A DNA stretch of 36,604 bases, from positions 1 to 36,604 of the IMG/VR virus record IMGVR_UViG_3300009175_001422; one strand, written 5' to 3'. Every line of letters begins with the position of its first letter. Position 1 is the first letter of the stretch. The notes below the pieces were generated by a model, which was not told the origin of the DNA, searched no databases, and saw only the letters and a list, made by a program, of their open reading frames with translations. Source of the DNA: a virus. The position numbers and the translations under genes were made by a program. Shown in pieces: positions 1,513 to 12,062 of the stretch.

Positions 1513-1589
1513 GGTGGGTGTAGCTCAGTTGGCAGAGCGGAAGAATGTGGCTCTTCAGGTCGCGGGTTCAAGTCCCGTCACTCACCCCA
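1513..1589 (+). tRNA. tRNA-His (anticodon GTG), CCA encoded
   Basis: Cloverleaf with the extra G(-1) typical of tRNA-His at 1513 facing C73 at 1586. The acceptor stem is GTGGGTG (1514-1520) with CACTCAC (1579-1585), including one G-U pair. The loop around the anticodon is AATGTGGCT, and CCA is encoded at 1587-1589. The leftward integrase gene ends inside this tRNA at base 1578, so the 3' end of tRNA-His is the likely left boundary of the prophage. Confidence 0.95.
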
Positions 1590-1600
1590 GATTGTACGCC
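1560..1600. other. Candidate attL zone at tRNA-His 3' end
   Basis: The integrase reading frame overlaps the tRNA by 12 bases, so the host-phage junction must lie at or very near this point. No matching core of useful length was found near the right end; the longest shared string I saw is an 8-mer, which is expected by chance. Serine integrases need only a 2-bp crossover core, so a long direct repeat is not required. Confidence 0.3.
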
Positions 1601-3239
1601 CCTGCGAAACGGGGGCTGTAGAGGCCACAACCCCATCTTGACTAATGGTCAGGGTGGGGTTTTTGTCGTTTTTAGGGGGTTCCTTGTTGATTACAGTGGG
1701 CAAAATATCGGCCAAGGCTTCTTCAAGGTATAAGGTCATGGCAATTTTTTCGTCATGTACGATGATTTCTTTGATCAAAACCTGTAGTAGGCTTCTTTGG
1801 GCTTCTCGGGGCGCCAGATCGAGATATTTCATGGCAAGCTGGATGTTCTTAAACAAGAACTCTCCGGATGACGCGTCCATGTGTGCGATTTTCTTCTGAA
1901 CCTGCAGTTTTTCGATTTCTTCTTCAAGCCTTCCAATTTCTGATTCAATCCCAGCAAGTTTTGTTTTGTAAGTTGATCCCTGTGTGATTGCATTATTCAT
2001 GGCCATTTCGAGCAATTGATTTGCCTCATGGCGCAGGGTGTTAAGAGCAGATTCTTTTTCATTTACTATGGATTCGATCTTTTCGAATTTTAATTTTGCG
2101 TCCAGCACCGCGCTTCCGATTGCATGAGTAATTATTTTTTGGTCTTTTGAGGCATCTTTGAAGAATTTGATTATTTCGGTATCGAAACCTATGGCAGGTA
2201 TTCGTTCATAGGAACAGCCAAGGGCTTGCCTTGACCGCGCACATTCATAGTAAAAGAATTTGTTTTTTCCTCTCCCTGCAGAATGAGCTGCCACAAGATG
2301 ACTTCCGCAGTGTCCACATTTAATCAATCCACTTAGTAGATATGTATATTCGTGATTAATTTTTACGAAGCTATGCCCGGGAAGGCGTGCGCTTAATACG
2401 GTGTTTGCCTTTTCCCATATTTTTTCGCTTACCAAGGGTTCGTGTTTGCCCTTATGCAATTCACCGTTGTATTTCAGGTAGCCCTTATAGAAAGGATTCT
2501 TGATTATGGAAGATAATCCGGTTCGGAGCCATGGTTTGCCACTGGATGTATAAATCTTTCTTTCATGTAAAGCATGCCCGATTTCTGTCAGGGATTTGTT
2601 TTCAGCGGCCATTTGCCAGATGATTTTAATATGCGGAGCGATCTTTTCATCGATGACAGCTTTCTTGGGTTGTTTACCATTTGGGAGCTGTTCACCGTTA
2701 TTTACCAGTTTGTAGCCTATGGGCGTTGTGCCTCCAATGCGTAGGCCTTGTCTGACACGCGCAATAGCGGAAGCCTTGACACGTTCACCGGTTAGTTCGC
2801 GTTCAAAGGCAGAAAGAATGCCAAGGATGCCTATAACAACGCGACCGATTGCTGTAGAGCTGTCGAGGTTTTCTCGGACCGAGATGAAATCAACATTGCG
2901 CTCTTTAAAGACGTCAATCATTGCATACAGGTCTCGCGTATTACGAGTGAGGCGATCAAGGCGGAAGAATATTACGCCATCAAATGATCGCTTGGTTTGA
3001 ACATCATTGAGGATCAGTTGGATTCCAGGGCGGTTTAGATCTTTACCGGAGAAACCGTCATCATTCACAATGCCTTTATTCCCGATGTCGGCCATTTCAT
3101 ATCCAAAAGCATCCAGCATATTTTTGCAGTGATGAGCTTGGGCGTCCAGCGTAGTGAAATCGCCTTGTGCCTGTTCGTCAGTTGAGCATCGGGTGTAAAT
3201 AACGAATTTTTTCTTCTGATTTTCTGTTTTAAGTGTCAT
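1578..3239 (-). CDS. Large serine recombinase (prophage integrase)
   Basis: Site-specific recombinase that integrates and excises the phage by serine-mediated double-strand exchange. The N-terminal resolvase domain (about 12-165) has the catalytic Ser19 in TRCSTDEQ and the RLDRLTR arginine motif at 93-99. The recombinase domain follows (about 170-290), then a zinc ribbon with Cys308, Cys311, Cys333 and Cys342, and a coiled coil (about 380-450) typical of serine integrases. The start ATG has AAAGGA 5 bases upstream. The length of 553 aa fits the family. The final residues TIWGE are encoded by the tRNA-His 3' end, so the C-terminus could differ in the free phage. Serine integrases seldom target tRNAs, which makes this placement unusual. 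Confidence 0.95.
   Translation of the reverse strand: MTLKTENQKKKFVIYTRCSTDEQAQGDFTTLDAQAHHCKNMLDAFGYEMADIGNKGIVNDDGFSGKDLNRPGIQLILNDVQTKRSFDGVIFFRLDRLTRNTRDLYAMIDVFKERNVDFISVRENLDSSTAIGRVVIGILGILSAFERELTGERVKASAIARVRQGLRIGGTTPIGYKLVNNGEQLPNGKQPKKAVIDEKIAPHIKIIWQMAAENKSLTEIGHALHERKIYTSSGKPWLRTGLSSIIKNPFYKGYLKYNGELHKGKHEPLVSEKIWEKANTVLSARLPGHSFVKINHEYTYLLSGLIKCGHCGSHLVAAHSAGRGKNKFFYYECARSRQALGCSYERIPAIGFDTEIIKFFKDASKDQKIITHAIGSAVLDAKLKFEKIESIVNEKESALNTLRHEANQLLEMAMNNAITQGSTYKTKLAGIESEIGRLEEEIEKLQVQKKIAHMDASSGEFLFKNIQLAMKYLDLAPREAQRSLLQVLIKEIIVHDEKIAMTLYLEEALADILPTVINKEPPKNDKNPTLTISQDGVVASTAPVSQGRTIWGE
1629..1664 (+). terminator. Rho-independent terminator for the tRNA transcript, inside int
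   Basis: AACCCCA (1629-1635) pairs with TGGGGTT (1655-1661), with a nested TTGAC/GTCA arm pair, and TTTT follows on the + strand. It would stop transcripts coming out of tRNA-His before they run antisense through the integrase gene. It is embedded in integrase coding sequence on the opposite strand. Confidence 0.65.
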
Positions 3240-3311
3240 TTCAGTCCTTTTTTTGACTCAACCCTATAACAACCCCGTTACAAGTCAAGTTTTATCCCCC
3301 TAAGGCTTTAA

Positions 3312-3337
3312 TACGACGTTTTCAGGAAAAGTGTCGG
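3312..3337 (-). promoter_or_regulatory. 26-bp dyad element, copy facing the integrase
   Basis: Read on the - strand it begins CCGACACTTT and ends ACGTCGTA, with half-sites CGACAC and ACGTCG. It is 73 bases upstream of the integrase ATG. Similarity to the + strand copy at 3344 continues downstream of the dyad (GTCGTAT, then GCCTTAG and a purine-rich patch). It lies back to back with that copy, 6 bases apart, forming a long imperfect palindrome. It is either an operator or a promoter for a phage regulator. Confidence 0.6.
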
Positions 3338-3343
3338 TAATTG

Positions 3344-3369
3344 CCGACGTTTCTCAGGTGGACGTCGTA
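3344..3369 (+). promoter_or_regulatory. 26-bp dyad element, copy ahead of the 74-aa gene
   Basis: It begins CCGACGTTTC and ends ACGTCGTA. The 6-bp arms CGACGT and ACGTCG are perfect inverted repeats separated by 11 bases. The distance from its last base to the ATG at 3394 is 25, the same as for the copy at 4308-4333. The sequence between it and the ribosome site is also similar in both. Confidence 0.65.
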
Positions 3370-3393
3370 TGTATGCCTTAGAGGTGAAAAATT

Positions 3394-3618
3394 ATGAGCG
3401 AAAAAATATTGAAGAATTTCCAAAAGAGATTTGTCAACGGGATCAGCGTGGCTTATTTGAAGAAGCCCTTGGAACCGGCAGAGCAGAAGTTTCGTGATTC
3501 AAGGCTCGCCAAGGCATACGAACAGGTTCTGGCAGGGATTCTTAAAAGAGAGCCAAGGCAGGAGGAGTTGCTCGGATTGGTTGATATTGAACCAATCATT
3601 TCACGTCGGAAACATTAA
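3394..3618 (+). CDS. Unknown 74-aa protein, first gene of the rightward early operon
   Basis: Small basic protein that I do not recognise. The ATG has AGAGGTG 7 bases upstream. It has a Lys/Arg-rich N-terminus (MSEKILKNFQKRF), a mostly helical predicted middle and a basic tail RRKH. It is the first gene divergent from the integrase, directly behind a 26-bp dyad element, and a perfect-stem terminator follows its stop. That position suits a regulator or excision factor. No helix-turn-helix is evident, so function stays unassigned. Confidence 0.7.
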   Translation: MSEKILKNFQKRFVNGISVAYLKKPLEPAEQKFRDSRLAKAYEQVLAGILKREPRQEELLGLVDIEPIISRRKH

Positions 3619-3642
3619 ATCACGGAGCCCTCCGTGATTTTT
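3617..3642 (+). terminator. Rho-independent terminator after the 74-aa gene
   Basis: ATCACGGA (3619-3626) and TCCGTGAT (3631-3638) form a perfect 8-bp stem with loop GCCC, followed by TTTT. It begins right at the stop codon and separates the 74-aa gene from the sigma-factor gene. Confidence 0.8.
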
Positions 3643-3717
3643 AAGAGCGTTTAAAAGAGCTATCTTTATTTGGGCTCAATCAGAGATATCAAAAAAAACC
3701 TTAAGGGGAGGTATCTC

Positions 3718-4299
3718 ATGATGAGTCCAAGTTACAAAGGCCTGTTTGAAGGTTGGGAAATCGCAGTAGCAAAGAAGTTGATTAACGATTTTAAGAAACA
3801 ATGGGGTTGTTTAGAGCTTGATGGTTTTGATGATCTTTTGCAGGAATGCCTTACGCAGTGGTTTCTGGCAAAGGACAAATATGATCCCAGTACAGAAGCG
3901 TCAAAAAAGACATTCATGGCAAAGGTTGTTAAAAACAGACTTTTTGACATTGTTAAAGGCCACGAACGGTTCCGCAGAAAAGATGCACATAAGATCGCCT
4001 CATTGGATCAGCCGATATCTGATGAAGAAGACGCTCCTACCTTATTAGATTTACTTTCAGATGATGAAAAGCATTCCACAAGTTTTCGGGTACATACCGA
4101 ACTCAAGGTAGATATTTCCCGTACTTTCCAAAAATTAACCCCTAAACAGCAAGAGCTTTGCCGGTTACTTGGTGAAGAAGGCTTAAGTATTAAAGAAGCA
4201 AGCGAAATTCTTCAGACGCCGCGAGGCACTGTCTATGAAGAAATTAAACGCATTAAGGCCATATTTCAGGACGAAAACCTTCAGGAGTATCTGGGCTAA
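3718..4299 (+). CDS. Phage-encoded ECF-like sigma-70 family factor
   Basis: Probable RNA polymerase sigma factor of 193 aa. An N-terminal region-2-like helical part (about 10-90) includes FDDLLQECLTQW and the FMAKVVKNRLFDIVKGHERFRR helix (quoted here in part: KNRLFDIVKGHERFRR). An acidic linker (about 100-125) leads to region 4 (about 138-185) with LTPKQQELCRLLGEEGLSIKEA (in part: GLSIKEASEIL) and a helix-turn-helix. The ATG at 3718 is chosen because GGGGAGG lies 6 bases before it; an in-frame TTG at 3670 has no such site. It could direct host polymerase to phage promoters such as the 26-bp elements nearby. An anti-sigma gene was not seen. A regulator that merely resembles sigma region 4 is the alternative. 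Confidence 0.8.
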   Translation: MMSPSYKGLFEGWEIAVAKKLINDFKKQWGCLELDGFDDLLQECLTQWFLAKDKYDPSTEASKKTFMAKVVKNRLFDIVKGHERFRRKDAHKIASLDQPISDEEDAPTLLDLLSDDEKHSTSFRVHTELKVDISRTFQKLTPKQQELCRLLGEEGLSIKEASEILQTPRGTVYEEIKRIKAIFQDENLQEYLG

Positions 4300-4307
4300 A
4301 GAAATTC

Positions 4308-4333
4308 CCGACACTTTCTGGGTGAACGTCGTA
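4308..4333 (+). promoter_or_regulatory. 26-bp dyad element, copy ahead of the 90-aa gene
   Basis: It begins CCGACACTTT and ends ACGTCGTA, overlapping the region just after the sigma-factor stop. It is 25 bases from its own start codon at 4358, with GGAGGAG between, as in the copy at 3344-3369. The preserved spacing suggests that element, leader and ribosome site were duplicated as one unit. Confidence 0.65.
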
Positions 4334-4357
4334 TGCATGCATAGGAGGAGAAATTCG

Positions 4358-4630
4358 ATGACGTCGGTTTGTAAGTTCACATTTAAGAAGGAAGTCACCC
4401 GGCAGTTTGTAGAGGAACAGATCGCTTTTGCGATTCTTTCAGCCGAGTGCACTTTTGGCCAAGCGAAGGTAAGGCTTAATGCTGCTTATTTGGCAGCGGA
4501 CAACAAGGTCGTTATCGATGTTTCCAGCAAGATTGGTGAGCATGTCGCGGAGGTTTTTACAGGTTTGATGATCAAGTTTGTTGGTGAACAGGGCTTCGCA
4601 GTTGAGCGAATCAAGGGGGGCAAGTCATGA
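4358..4630 (+). CDS. Unknown 90-aa protein
   Basis: Not recognised. The ATG at 4358 follows GGAGGAG by 7 bases; an in-frame start further upstream would run through the 26-bp element, so this start is preferred. The protein is mixed alpha/beta in appearance, has two cysteines (Cys5 and Cys31) and ends in a Lys/Gly-rich tail. Its stop overlaps the next start (ATGA). The name of the domain is unknown and no catalytic motif is visible. Its own element-type promoter marks it as an early gene. Confidence 0.75.
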   Translation: MTSVCKFTFKKEVTRQFVEEQIAFAILSAECTFGQAKVRLNAAYLAADNKVVIDVSSKIGEHVAEVFTGLMIKFVGEQGFAVERIKGGKS

Positions 4631-4737
4631 GAGTCATCAAAGGATTAAAGAAGCTCTACAAGAATTTAAGTCGGTATAACCGTCAGCAGTTACTTAGGGC
4701 AAATTTCAAAGGGACTAAGAATGCAAGATTTATTTAA
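4627..4737 (+). CDS. Basic 36-aa mini-protein, translationally coupled
   Basis: A short frame starts at the ATGA overlap with the preceding gene and ends 17 bases inside the helicase gene. The product is strongly basic (LKKLYKNLSRYNRQQLLR) and could form one amphipathic helix. It may be a nucleic-acid-binding peptide, or just a coupling ORF that carries ribosomes to the helicase start. No homolog is claimed. Confidence 0.45.
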   Translation: MRVIKGLKKLYKNLSRYNRQQLLRANFKGTKNARFI

Positions 4738-6139
4738 ACATCAGAGCGATGCAGTTGAGTTTGCCGTACGTAATCGCGGGAGTTGCGCGTTGTTTCATGA
4801 TCCCGGACTGGGCAAGACTCGCACATGCCTTGAGATTTTTAAGAGGTATCGGCAGACGGATCCCAAGCTGCGTCTTTTTGTAGTGTGCCCTCTATCACTG
4901 GTTAATGCAGCATGGGGCGAGGACATTAAACGCTTCACCGAGTTTTCGCATGCGCCTTTAAAGCAAATCAAAGGTGATTTGCCGGATATTGTCATCGTCA
5001 ATTATGAGGCGCTCATTTCACGTAAATATTTACCCACAATTCACCGCCTTGTCATGGATTACCAATTCATGTGCGTATTAGATGAAAGCTCACGTTTAAA
5101 GAATCACAAGAGCGTCACTACTAAAACGCTTCTTGCCATGACGGAATGTTTTCGCTATCGCGTGATCGCATCCGGTACGCCCATGCCAAATAGCGAGGCC
5201 GAATTGTGGGGACAGATTAGCTTCGTCCGGCCATATCTTTTGCCGCATTCGTTTTATGCCTTCCGTAATACCTATTTTCATTTAGAGCGTGATGGGGAAA
5301 TCATGACGACCGGCAGGTACGTTTCCAGAGATGAGATGCGGGAAATATTAACTCAAGGTTGGAAGTACGAAATAACGGCTGAAAGCCAACGCCAGCTTAT
5401 GCACGAAATCAGTCCGGTCACTCATTGGGTTAAGAAAGAGGAAGCCTTAGATTTACCAGAAAAGATTGATGAGGTTCGGGAAGTCCAATTAAGCGCCAAA
5501 GAGTCAAAAGCATATGAGGAGATGCGGGATCTCTTGGTCACGGAAATCGAAGGCCAAGAAATCACCGCCCAAATTGTTTTAACCAAACTCATGAAACTTC
5601 GCCAGGCCACTTCAGGATTTTTCTATGCGGAAGATGGCAAGGCGGTTGAGGTAGATAAAGCCTCAAAACTCAAAGAACTTGAAGAAGTCATAGAGGAGTT
5701 AGGGGTACAGCCTCTCATTATCTGGGTTCAATTTCACCATGAGGTTCATGTTATTCAAAGAATGCTGGCAGCCAAGTATGGCAGCGATCAGGTGACAACG
5801 CTCTATTCAGAAACAGAGAACAGGGACAAAGAGATTAACCGGTTTAAGAACAATCAAGTCCGGTTTTTAATCGCTCATCCCAGATCCGCAGCGCATGGTC
5901 TTACCTTCATTAATTGCAACACGATGATTTTTTACAGCATGGATTATTCATACGAGGCTCATGCCCAAGCGCGGGACCGCATTCACCGTATTGGGCAGAG
6001 CAACAAGTGTCTTTATATCTACATGATTGCCACCGGCACTATTGATGAACAGCTTTTAATGGTCTTACAACGCAAGAAAGGTCTACAGGATGCAGTTTAC
6101 GCGATTGTCCGAAACAAATTTCAAAAGACGCGTCATTGA
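4721..6139 (+). CDS. SNF2-family (SF2) DNA helicase/ATPase
   Basis: DNA-dependent ATPase of phage replication/recombination modules. Walker A (motif I) is DPGLGKT at 27-33, the DEAH-type motif II reads DESS at 121-124, and motif III is SGTPMPN near 151. A C-terminal helicase lobe holds the SNF2 signature QARDRIHRIGQ at 416-426. The 472-aa size is that of the compact phage SNF2 proteins that lack extra chromatin domains. The ATG at 4721 has AAAGGGA 7 bases upstream. Its 3' end overlaps the VRR-NUC gene by 50 bases, so the two are probably made in fixed proportion and may act together as a helicase-nuclease. Confidence 0.9.
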   Translation: MQDLFKHQSDAVEFAVRNRGSCALFHDPGLGKTRTCLEIFKRYRQTDPKLRLFVVCPLSLVNAAWGEDIKRFTEFSHAPLKQIKGDLPDIVIVNYEALISRKYLPTIHRLVMDYQFMCVLDESSRLKNHKSVTTKTLLAMTECFRYRVIASGTPMPNSEAELWGQISFVRPYLLPHSFYAFRNTYFHLERDGEIMTTGRYVSRDEMREILTQGWKYEITAESQRQLMHEISPVTHWVKKEEALDLPEKIDEVREVQLSAKESKAYEEMRDLLVTEIEGQEITAQIVLTKLMKLRQATSGFFYAEDGKAVEVDKASKLKELEEVIEELGVQPLIIWVQFHHEVHVIQRMLAAKYGSDQVTTLYSETENRDKEINRFKNNQVRFLIAHPRSAAHGLTFINCNTMIFYSMDYSYEAHAQARDRIHRIGQSNKCLYIYMIATGTIDEQLLMVLQRKKGLQDAVYAIVRNKFQKTRH

Positions 6140-6551: not shown

Positions 6552-6953
6552 ATGGAAAAGGCAATCGAGAGAGATTTGGTTGTAAATTTCAAAAGCGCCA
6601 AGGGAAAGCGGGACTCCTTAAAAGAGGAGTTAAAACAGGCGCAGGATGAATACGAAAAGACCGAGTTTGCTCTTATTGAGTTCTTGGAAGCAAATTCTGC
6701 GGTATCAACCGCTTGTTATGAGGGGATTGGATACGCGCAGATTCAAAAGCCGAGGCTTTATGCCAGCTGTAAAGAGGAAAACATGCGGACGTTGTTTGCA
6801 TTTCTTAAAGAACAACGTCGTGAGGATTTAATTAAGACCACTGTCTTGCCTCAAAGCCTGTCGAGTTTTACCAGCGAATGCATAGAGAACGGCTTGGATG
6901 TACCGGAGTGTATCAGCTATTACCTTAAACCGTCAGTCAGGCTCTATTCATAA
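6552..6953 (+). CDS. Unknown 133-aa phage protein with N-terminal coiled coil
   Basis: Not recognised at family level. Residues about 10-50 (KGKRDSLKEELKQAQDEYEK) form a strong coiled coil. A compact domain follows with the sequence KEENMRTLFAFLKEQRREDLIKTTVLP (quoted in part: RTLFAFLKEQRREDLIKT), a pattern often found in phage replication-module proteins. GGGGG lies 6 bases before the ATG. It stands between the nuclease gene and the conserved 242-aa protein, suggesting a replication accessory role. This is inference. Confidence 0.75.
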   Translation: MEKAIERDLVVNFKSAKGKRDSLKEELKQAQDEYEKTEFALIEFLEANSAVSTACYEGIGYAQIQKPRLYASCKEENMRTLFAFLKEQRREDLIKTTVLPQSLSSFTSECIENGLDVPECISYYLKPSVRLYS

Positions 6954-6966
6954 AAGGAGGCAGGTC

Positions 6967-7695
6967 ATGTCTAATGATGTCATTGAAAAAACACAAACAG
7001 GTTTAGTCCCATCAACGCAACCTCAAAGAGGTTTTGAGGGCGGGGTGGATCAGGAAGATTTAATTATACCACGAGCGAAACTTATTCAGGCGTTATCGCC
7101 GGAATTAGCCGAGGGATTAGAAGGCATTAAGATCGGTTCAATCATCAATTCGCTAAGCAAAGAAATTCTTCCGCAGGATTTTATCCCGATATTCACGTTT
7201 AAGAATTTTATTCGGTTTAATCCGCGCAGCAAGGATGATCCGAATTTTGACAGCGATTATGACCCGGGTGCGGTCATTTGGAAATCAACCGATCCGCTGG
7301 ATCCAAAGGTCAAAGAGCAAACGAAATTTGGGCCCAATGGAGAGAAGCCCGTAGCCGTTACGTTTATTAATTTCTTTTCGTACTTCCCGGGTGTCAGTAT
7401 GCCTATTATCGTCAGCTTTTCAAAGACCAGCTATAAGGCCGGTAAGAATCTTTTATCGCTGGCTAAGTTTTGCGGTGGAGATATGTTTTCCCGCAAGTAC
7501 AGGCTGGGATCTCAAATGGAAACCAACGACGTGGCAACATACGCCATATTGAAAGCAAAGCCAGTTGGCGCAGTTTCGCCAGAAGAATTCCAGCTTTGCG
7601 AAGGATTGTGGAAGGAATTCTCAACGAAGGTTGACGTGATTCAGGTCCATGAGGGGGATGTTCAGGAAGACGTTGAAGGCAAAAGACCGTATTAA
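6967..7695 (+). CDS. Conserved phage protein, possible ssDNA-binding function
   Basis: A 242-aa protein of a type repeatedly seen next to phage primases and nucleases. Its conserved landmarks are PRAKLIQALSPE, GSIINSLSKEILP, FIPIFTFKNFIRFNPR, IWKSTDP, LNFF-like INFFSYFPGV and SFSKTSYKAGKNLLSLA. The perfect AAAGGAGG site before the ATG at 6967 decides the start over an upstream frame extension. By position it may coat or protect ssDNA during replication, but I see no OB-fold proof and no catalytic motif. Confidence 0.8.
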   Translation: MSNDVIEKTQTGLVPSTQPQRGFEGGVDQEDLIIPRAKLIQALSPELAEGLEGIKIGSIINSLSKEILPQDFIPIFTFKNFIRFNPRSKDDPNFDSDYDPGAVIWKSTDPLDPKVKEQTKFGPNGEKPVAVTFINFFSYFPGVSMPIIVSFSKTSYKAGKNLLSLAKFCGGDMFSRKYRLGSQMETNDVATYAILKAKPVGAVSPEEFQLCEGLWKEFSTKVDVIQVHEGDVQEDVEGKRPY

Positions 7696-10611: not shown

Positions 10612-10769
10612 ATCGGCGGGTCCTTCTGATGGGGGTGGGGTTAAGCGGGTCGGCAAGCGCGCTCGCTGTCAGTGATTGAAAAATAATTTTTTCGTTTCAT
10701 GTTCATGTTTTAAGTAACAAGACAATACCGTCAGGGGCTTATCCCCGACGGTAATAAGGAGAAATGGCA
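10612..10769 (+). promoter_or_regulatory. Gene-free leader with hairpin before the methyltransferase
   Basis: A 158-base gap. At 10726-10753 TACCGTC and GACGGTA form a 7-bp stem, continued by GGGG/CCCC after a single bulged A, around loop CTTAT. No T-run follows; AAGGAG starts 3 bases later. This makes it more likely a translational or operator element than a terminator. The rest holds an A/T-rich stretch (10677-10693) and a short CATGTT repeat. No convincing -35/-10 pair was seen. Confidence 0.5.
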
Positions 10770-12062
10770 ATGGCAAAGATTAACATTCAACCTGAAATTA
10801 TGAAATTTCAAATTGCATCTTTAGTGCCGTGGGAAGAAAATCCGCGTGACATATCCCCAGAGGCTTTAAAAGGCTTGCGGGATAGTTTAGAAAAGTTTGG
10901 CTATGTGGATTTGATCGTGATTAACAAACGCAACATGCAGGTTGTTTCTGGTCATCAGCGTTTACGGGTTCTTAAAGAAGATGGCGTCCAAGAAGTCACC
11001 TGTCTGGCCGTTGACATGGACGAAATCGCCCAGAACGCTTTGGCAGTAACGCTTAACAATCAGCAGATTACGGGTTTCTTCACCAAGACGTTGATACCGA
11101 TTTTGGAAGATTTGAGGCTGAAAATGCCAGCGGATTATCTAAATCTTCGCCTTGCTGAATTAAGGCAGGGTCTGGAAGAATTCGAGCTAGAAAAGATGGG
11201 AAAAACTTTGCCGGATGATGTTCCGGCCCCGCCCAAGGTGGCCGTGACAAAGCCTGGCGATTTATGGATTTTGGGAGAGCATCGGCTTTTGTGCGGTGAC
11301 TCAACCAAAGATGAAGACGTGGTACGTCTTATGGACGGGCAGAAGGCAAGGTTGTTTGCGACTGACCCGCCTTATTGCGTGGATTACACCGGTGCTGATC
11401 GCCCCAATGGTGGCAAGGATTGGTCGAATGTTTATCATGAGATTGACATTCCCGATGCGGTGGATTTTATACGCAAATTTTATACAGCTGGCCTTAAACA
11501 TATTCTTGAGGGGACGGCATTGTATCTTTGGCATGCTTCCAAGCGGCGTTCGGATATTGAAGGCATAGCCAAGGAGTTGGGAATACTTATTCATCAGGAG
11601 ATTGTTTGGGTTAAGCCGTGCGTTATTTTGACTTACTCATTTTATTCATGGCGACATGAGCCATGTTTGCTCATGTGGATTAAAGGTCAAAAGCCGGAAT
11701 ATAAACCTAAAAAGAAATCTATTGGGAGTGTGTGGACAGTTGATTTTTTAAGGACAGGGGATCCATCTACACCGGAATATCACAGTGATGTCTGGGAGTT
11801 AGATTGGGAAGGTAAGAAGCGCAATCCCGGACTTGATCATCCCACAGTTAAACCTACGGAAGTTTTCGCTATACCAATGCGGGTTCATACGATGCCAGGG
11901 GAGATTTGTTACGAACCGTTTAGCGGTTCAGGTTCGCAGATTATCGCGGGCGAACGGTTAAACCGCAGGGTGTTTGCCATGGAACTTGAACCAGTCTTTT
12001 GTGATGTGGCGGTTAAGCGTTGGGAGAATTTTACTGGGAAGAAAGCAGTTTTGGCGAGGTAA
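10770..12062 (+). CDS. ParB-like nuclease domain / DNA adenine methyltransferase fusion
   Basis: N6-adenine (or N4-cytosine) DNA methyltransferase with an N-terminal ParB/sulfiredoxin-like domain. The ParB part (about 10-100) reads LVPWEENPRDIS...VVSGHQRLRVLKEDG. The methyltransferase part has motif IV DPPY (numbering from the ATG at 10764: 201-204) before motif I FSGSGS (386-391), the beta-class order. The ATG at 10770 is preferred because AAGGAG lies 8 bases before it, but only 2 before the ATG at 10764. Such fusions typically sit next to phage terminase genes and may modify phage DNA against host restriction. No cognate restriction gene is present. Confidence 0.92.
   Translation: MAKINIQPEIMKFQIASLVPWEENPRDISPEALKGLRDSLEKFGYVDLIVINKRNMQVVSGHQRLRVLKEDGVQEVTCLAVDMDEIAQNALAVTLNNQQITGFFTKTLIPILEDLRLKMPADYLNLRLAELRQGLEEFELEKMGKTLPDDVPAPPKVAVTKPGDLWILGEHRLLCGDSTKDEDVVRLMDGQKARLFATDPPYCVDYTGADRPNGGKDWSNVYHEIDIPDAVDFIRKFYTAGLKHILEGTALYLWHASKRRSDIEGIAKELGILIHQEIVWVKPCVILTYSFYSWRHEPCLLMWIKGQKPEYKPKKKSIGSVWTVDFLRTGDPSTPEYHSDVWELDWEGKKRNPGLDHPTVKPTEVFAIPMRVHTMPGEICYEPFSGSGSQIIAGERLNRRVFAMELEPVFCDVAVKRWENFTGKKAVLAR

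Follow-up and report, generated by a model that had tools for sequence, protein, structure and literature searches.

The 36,604 bases analysed here (the window, a 36.6-kb IMG/VR virus contig) hold three copies of a short element, two of them between an integrase gene and a rightward series of genes and the third about 1 kb away, and the question that the locus raises is which protein reads them. An earlier note on this DNA had left two answers standing: the copies could be the operators of an unrecognised repressor, or they could be a promoter class for the sigma-like protein encoded between them. In this report, which is computational throughout, we conclude that they are very probably (at roughly 93%) ECF-type promoters of a prophage, recognised by the sigma factor whose gene lies between the second and the third. 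The features on which the argument draws are as follows, with the elements called R, F and D.

ORF 1-1266: putative host hflX (our own reading of the ORF)
After hflX and before the integrase: tRNA-Arg and tRNA-His
1578..3239, minus strand: large serine integrase (Resolvase, Recombinase and Zn_ribbon_recom domains; phrog_95 integrase), predicted target of element R
3310..3337, minus strand: element R, predicted leftward promoter of the integrase; -35 CCGACAC at 3337-3331, -10 CGTCGTATT at 3318-3310
3344..3371, plus strand: element F, predicted promoter of the 74-aa gene; -35 CCGACGT at 3344-3350, -10 CGTCGTATG at 3363-3371
3394..3618, plus strand: gene 1, a 74-aa helical protein, first gene of the predicted sigma regulon
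3617..3642, plus strand: inverted repeat AAATCACGGA-GCCC-TCCGTGATTTTT between gene 1 and the sigma gene, read from the sequence
3683..3717, plus strand: hairpin covering the sigma ribosome site; arms GAGATATC at 3683-3690 and GGTATCTC at 3710-3717, with the ATG next
3718..4299, plus strand: ECF-type sigma factor, 193 aa, predicted reader of the elements; region 2.3-2.4 at residues 63-90, -35-binding HTH at residues 142-185
4308..4335, plus strand: element D, predicted promoter directly 3' of the sigma gene; -35 CCGACAC at 4308-4314, -10 CGTCGTATG at 4327-4335
4358..4630, plus strand: conserved 90-aa protein, encoded by the first gene behind element D (57% identity to its homologue in the relative L004)
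4721..6139, plus strand: SNF2-type helicase (SNF2-rel_dom and Helicase_C), the first gene that can be recognised in the rightward replication operon downstream of D

The three exact 26-bp copies that had been described (3312-3337, minus strand; 3344-3369 and 4308-4333, plus strand) are indeed present. The pattern CCGAC-N13-ACGTCGTA matches the window exactly three times, compared with a mean of 0.00 and a maximum of 0 matches in 100 dinucleotide-preserving shuffles, and the 36,604-base record has no other site within one mismatch of CCGAC-N14-CGTCGTA, in keeping with the claim that no further full copy exists. The plus-strand copies end at 3369 and 4333, and the start codons at 3394 and 4358 begin 25 positions on in both cases; the likeness extends into the leader as TATGNATGC, followed by AGAGG or AGGAGG. 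The length of 26 bp holds for the exact copies and falls slightly short of the functional unit, which is 28 bp because the -10 part extends through CGTCGTATG. Elements R and F stand back to back, their first positions 7 apart, and the first position of F lies 50 nt from the ATG, a distance of 45-51 nt in the 35 loci measured.

The rightward run proceeds from the 74-aa gene through the sigma gene, the 90-aa gene, the SNF2 helicase, a VRR nuclease and a primase to terminase, portal, head and tail genes, and element D is predicted to drive the 90-aa gene, the helicase, the nuclease and the replication operon. Gene 1 is conserved in 32 aligned loci, its model (pLDDT 83) consists of helices only, and Pfam and PHROG searches return no known domain or family for it; it may be a directionality factor, an anti-sigma factor (for which its place beside the sigma gene makes it a candidate by position) or something else. 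The 3' end of the integrase gene (1578) overlaps the host tRNA-His gene (1514-1589; compare 2001-2104 in L004). The prophage is therefore located at a tRNA gene, and host DNA encodes the final residues of its integrase. Among the early genes, those at 6552-6953 and 6967-7695 match the Pam3 gp33-like and Pam3 gp34-like families of cyanophage Pam3, a sequence likeness that hints at where the replication module came from. At 10764-12062, ahead of the terminase genes, lies the gene of a protein that fuses a ParB-like part to a DNA methyltransferase.

Judging by its domains and its predicted fold, the protein encoded between F and D is an ECF-type sigma factor. Its start is best placed at 3718, directly after the ribosome-site hairpin; an upstream TTG at 3670 is disfavoured. 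At about 190 aa it has the sigma2 and sigma4 domains and no others, as expected of a group 4 sigma-70 factor. It reaches 61.2 bits against TIGR02937 (sigma70-ECF; cutoff 42.9), a cutoff passed by 29 of 30 family members, and 27.9 bits against Pfam Sigma70_r4_2 (cutoff 25.7); Sigma70_r2, at 23.8 bits, falls just below its cutoff of 24. SigW is the best PDB match by sequence. The AlphaFold model is of moderate quality (pLDDT 71), with two helical domains and a poor linker, which is why whole-chain TM values are low; a Foldseek search with it nonetheless finds SigH complexes at an E value of 4e-5 and also RpoE, and its region 4 resembles sigmaE region 4 on -35 DNA (2h27; TMt 0.77-0.80), so that the modelled fold is like that of solved ECF sigma factors. 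The domain roles and the specificity loop of such proteins have been described (PMC6411747, PMC3817407). A tblastn search with the window sigma against 50,697 phage records matched only contigs of Listeria phages, at about 25% identity, and no phage of the phiEco32/7-11 kind was among the matches at E 1e-3 in this single-sequence search.

Relatives were gathered by scans with sigma, integrase and 90-aa protein alignments, which yielded 42 distinct loci, the window included, three of the relatives being in named genomes (two Omnitrophota MAGs and one contig labelled Burkholderiales). In 37 loci the elements could be placed, by eye following an automatic repeat search and with a one-base shift for L034 and L035. 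The statistics exclude five loci (L030, L031, L033, L041 and L089), in which the integrase was absent or of a distant family or the elements were unclear, and also L077, whose sigma gene is cut short. The sigma gene adjoins the integrase gene in nearly all loci with an integrase of the window's family. The sites of the elements are constant: a back-to-back pair separates the integrase gene from gene 1, and about half of the loci have one more element after the sigma stop codon; an ortholog of element R is present in all 35 training loci that have the intergenic region between integrase and gene 1. The sequence of the elements, despite this placement, differs from phage to phage. Loss of the elements from relatives that keep the genes would have spoken against any regulatory reading; what we find is that relatives with both integrase and sigma factor keep them, in the same places and in other sequence. 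The promoter form itself is stringent, with 19 nt from the first position to the -10 half in 35 of 37 loci and 18 nt in the remaining two, L034 and L035, which carry a textbook GGGAACTT...CGTCGTA. These two loci bear out the remark that the CGTC core fits ECF -10 elements. In a different setting, the Burkholderiales-labelled MAG contig (L014) has a sigma gene with an element CCGACACTTT..TTCCGTATA directly before a ParA-like gene and is without an integrase; it may have been misbinned or may represent a mobile element of another kind.

How the element sequence changes is the most telling evidence. In L004, whose sigma factor is 64% identical to that of the window, the same genes and three elements occupy the same places. 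Its elements read CCGACACTTT...TCCGGAATG, and those of the window CCGACACTTT...CGTCGTATG; thus, the change affects the -10-like half and spares the -35-like one, and of the two protein regions it is 2.4 that has changed, region 4 being conserved. This is what one would expect of a sigma factor and its promoters, not of a repressor and its dyad. The pattern is general. In partial Mantel tests over 36 loci, the -35 half follows region 4.2 (r 0.54, p 0.0005) and not region 2.4 (-0.07), whereas the -10 half follows region 2.4 (r 0.53, p 0.0005) and not region 4.2 (0.005). When gene 1 and the integrase are added as competing predictors, the two correlations stay at 0.49 and 0.53, respectively, and those of gene 1 (partial r 0.007 and 0.056) and of the integrase (-0.12 and -0.03) are not significant. 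Pairs of loci with like 4.2 and unlike 2.4 regions have identical -35 halves (mean 1.00) and a -10 identity of 0.57; for pairs with like 2.4 and unlike 4.2 regions, the values are 0.73 and 0.91. The clearest case is a natural domain swap between L007 and L008, in which the recognition helix is identical, region 2.4 has 29% identity, the -35 half is unchanged and the -10 half has switched at all three sites, from TCCGGAATG/ACCGGAATA to (C/T)GGGGAATG (types TCCGGAATG and CGGGGAATG, respectively). A test on greedy independent sister pairs did not separate the domains cleanly, in that region 4 correlated with the -10 half too (rho 0.73), because all distances grow together; it was too blunt for this purpose and was dropped as support.

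Some of this covariation can be read residue by residue. Arg84, which our alignment to ECF sigma factors places in the region of the specificity loop, goes with G at position 21 of the -10 half in 15 of 16 cases, compared with 1 in 35 for G21 without R84; in a tree computed from the remainder of the protein, residue and base changed on the same branch in 10 of 11 instances. Glu80 (E80) accompanies C22 in 22 of 22 cases. In the recognition helix, H168 goes with G at position 1 of the -35 half (16/16 versus 3/35, with three same-branch changes). Rules linking Y173 or F173 to -35 position 4 involve few evolutionary changes and are suggestive only.

Given a close reference, the sigma sequence also predicts the promoters. 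Among 384 genomes of the phylum Omnitrophota, to which L013 led, a profile search found the sigma factor in 17. For 19 new loci, we derived the expected promoters from whichever training loci had the closest region-4 helix and the closest region 2.4, and then scanned the loci for them. In all nine loci whose nearest helix reached a likeness of 75% or more, the predicted -35 half was present at 7/7 bases; in all ten loci whose nearest region 2.4 reached that likeness, the predicted -10 half was present at 8/9 bases or better, in both cases at the expected positions. Random combinations rarely equalled the prediction (1-8 of 300). L107 matched its weaker prediction too, and L095, L104, L108, L111 and L114 have element pairs of their own that were recognised by eye; L106, L109 and L110 showed no clear full element set. 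Some of the new loci (e.g., L113 and L105) are near to training loci, and the 19 are therefore not all fully independent. The promoter half of the earlier proposal is thus upheld by two separate covariations and by prediction outside the sample, and it is on these that the assignment of the -10 half to region 2.4 and of the -35 half to region 4.2 rests.

The same results bear on the other explanations. It is very unlikely that the elements are operators through which a repressor, be it the 74-aa protein or one that escaped recognition, silences the integrase and the early operon in the lysogen. Such an arrangement would account for two copies between divergent operons and for the perfect 6-bp inverted repeat of window copy B. 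That repeat is a coincidence, however, confined to this copy in the window: inverted half-sites are not kept from copy to copy, and for 127 elements from 51 loci, complementarity between the two halves does not exceed that of halves recombined between phages (2.709 observed versus 2.730 expected, p 0.70), so the name "dyad element" is not supported. Further, the copies are all oriented with transcription at a fixed distance from a start codon, gene 1 contributes nothing to the covariation, and no HTH or repressor family was found in gene 1 or the other window proteins scanned. As a candidate reader of the elements, the 74-aa protein was rejected together with the integrase, neither having a partial correlation with them.

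A host-encoded ECF sigma factor, with the phage protein acting elsewhere, would suit the ECF form of the elements, given how common such promoters are in bacteria; we consider it similarly improbable, since the element sequence tracks the phage sigma factor residue by residue. Moreover, co-resident prophages of one genome differ in their elements (G008, G084 and G202), and a single host sigma factor could not explain both versions. That the elements are binding sites for the integrase or an excision factor, that is, accessory sites of recombination, is suggested by the two copies that adjoin the integrase gene and is extremely unlikely in view of the third copy after the sigma gene, the tie of the copies to start codons and the lack of covariation between integrase sequence and elements.

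If the elements are promoters of the phage sigma factor, the circuit would work as follows. Region 4.2 would read the -35 half (CCGACAC), and region 2.4 with the specificity loop the -10 half (CGTCGTATG), at a fixed spacing. The sigma factor would most likely come from a transcript of its own and be kept low by the ribosome-site hairpin; once accumulating, it would recruit host RNA polymerase to three promoters at once. R would then fire leftward into the serine integrase gene, F rightward into the 74-aa gene, and D rightward into the genes for the 90-aa protein, the helicase and replication, which elsewhere could be served by read-through. Integration or excision and the early lytic genes would thereby form one regulon under one private switch, and because relatives carry the same circuit with other matched sequences, each phage would have its own key and lock. 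That transcription does start from the elements, that the effect is activation and that the circuit has a role in induction we infer from the sequences. The regulon appears to be tiny: in scans of complete records, the full-match elements number exactly three in L004, L006 and L007 and exactly two in L036, L037 and L060.

The circuit comes in two architectures. Loci with the third element have a gap of at least 80 nt between gene 1 and the sigma gene, and those without it have one of at most 63 nt, with no overlap; the -35 spacing of the divergent pair is mostly 7-13 nt in the former and mostly 26-29 nt in the latter. None of the sigma factor's own promoters stands immediately ahead of its gene in the window, so that autoregulation would need read-through there. 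In the second architecture one does, across a short gap, which would give positive feedback.

A consensus scan found no sigma-70 promoter ahead of the sigma gene; the region ahead of it has a conserved TATCCTTT-like stretch. The hairpin over its ribosome site is shared by most relatives and has strong support from covariation: in 23 leaders (the window and 22 related ones), 92.8% of cells are paired, two-sided changes occur in eight of nine pairs, and the covariation is 0.405, against at most 0.169 when the pairing is slid. Possibly, this hairpin exerts translational control of the sigma factor. The inverted repeat at 3617-3642 is a probable terminator. It occurs only among loci that have element D and a gap of 80 nt or more, some of which carry a degenerate form; the AAATCACGGA/TCCGTGATTT repeat escaped a scan for terminators. 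GCCCTCCGTGATTT follows gene 1 (upstream of the sigma gene; window, L022, L026 and L027) even in loci that no longer have the left arm of the repeat, and because CCCTCC is complementary to the GGAGG of the sigma ribosome site, the repeat may be more than a terminator. In the integrase leader (3262-3295), most loci have a conserved AACAACCCC(T)ATAACA..ACAAGTCAAG in the same place.

Two such sigma factors occur together in 4 of the 17 genomes: G008 (L013/L095), G084 (L097/L112, 48 kb apart on one contig), G202 (L105/L113) and G091 (L110/L114). In each of the three readable pairs, from the Omnitrophota genomes G008, G084 and G202, the promoters differ: CCGACAC/TCCGGAATG versus GCAACAT/GCCCGTATG, GTGACAG/CCCGATATA versus GTGACAG/ATCTGTATA, and TCGGCAG/CGACGTATG versus TCGTCTG/CTGCGTATG, respectively. 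These differences fit avoidance of cross-activation and are no proof of it, since pairs taken at random are usually different as well. We infer that the diversification would be driven by selection against cross-activation between prophages. The window proteins that were scanned include no recognisable CI-like repressor, the sigma factor seems to command integrase and replication, and a conserved hairpin may hold its translation. These facts raise the possibility, which we put forward tentatively and hold to be somewhat doubtful, that the sigma/promoter pair replaces the repressor/operator pair both as lysogeny-lysis switch and as immunity group, with selection against cross-activation splitting the family into orthogonal types.

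Sigma factors of phages are themselves known, ECF-type ones from lytic phages among them. Two lytic phages, phiEco32 and Salmonella phage 7-11, encode a sigma factor that drives middle and late genes, an anti-sigma factor shutting off the host (PMC4331800). They share with the family described here a phage-encoded sigma factor with a few well-conserved, phage-specific -35/-10 promoters, which take charge of part of the phage programme (PMC4331800); the present family differs in having a serine integrase, in a sigma factor predicted to drive integrase and early operon, and in having only two or three promoters. Sporulation-like sigma factors of Bacillus phages, some of them temperate, are likewise phage-borne and resemble host sporulation sigma factors, acting on host sporulation genes (PMC9429907), whereas the regulon seen here is the phage's own. 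Bacterial ECF sigma factors of the SigW/SigH/RpoE type have the same two domains, with regions 4 and 2.4 reading -35 and -10 (PMC6411747). The window sigma factor, unlike these, lies in a prophage with no recognisable anti-sigma gene and appears to control phage genes, and the specificity of its family differs between close relatives. Rhodius et al. (2013) engineered orthogonal ECF sets and chimeras that combine different -10- and -35-reading domains (PMC3817407); such combinations of domains, together with promoter halves to match, occur naturally within this one prophage family. A literature search, with most subscription papers outside its reach, found no phage ECF sigma factor commanding integrase and early genes, nor such co-diversification, and the control of both by a sigma factor that diversifies with its promoters looks new.

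What this family offers is a natural series of many matched pairs, descended from one regulator and its few promoters, in which the exchange of a protein domain is accompanied by an exchange of the promoter half. Its protein-to-DNA recognition code is partly readable (R84 with G21, E80 with C22, H168 with G1 of the -35 half), which would help to decode ECF promoter specificity and would supply ready orthogonal parts. It also raises the question of how the temperate phages of uncultured Omnitrophota choose between lysogeny and lysis with no repressor in sight.
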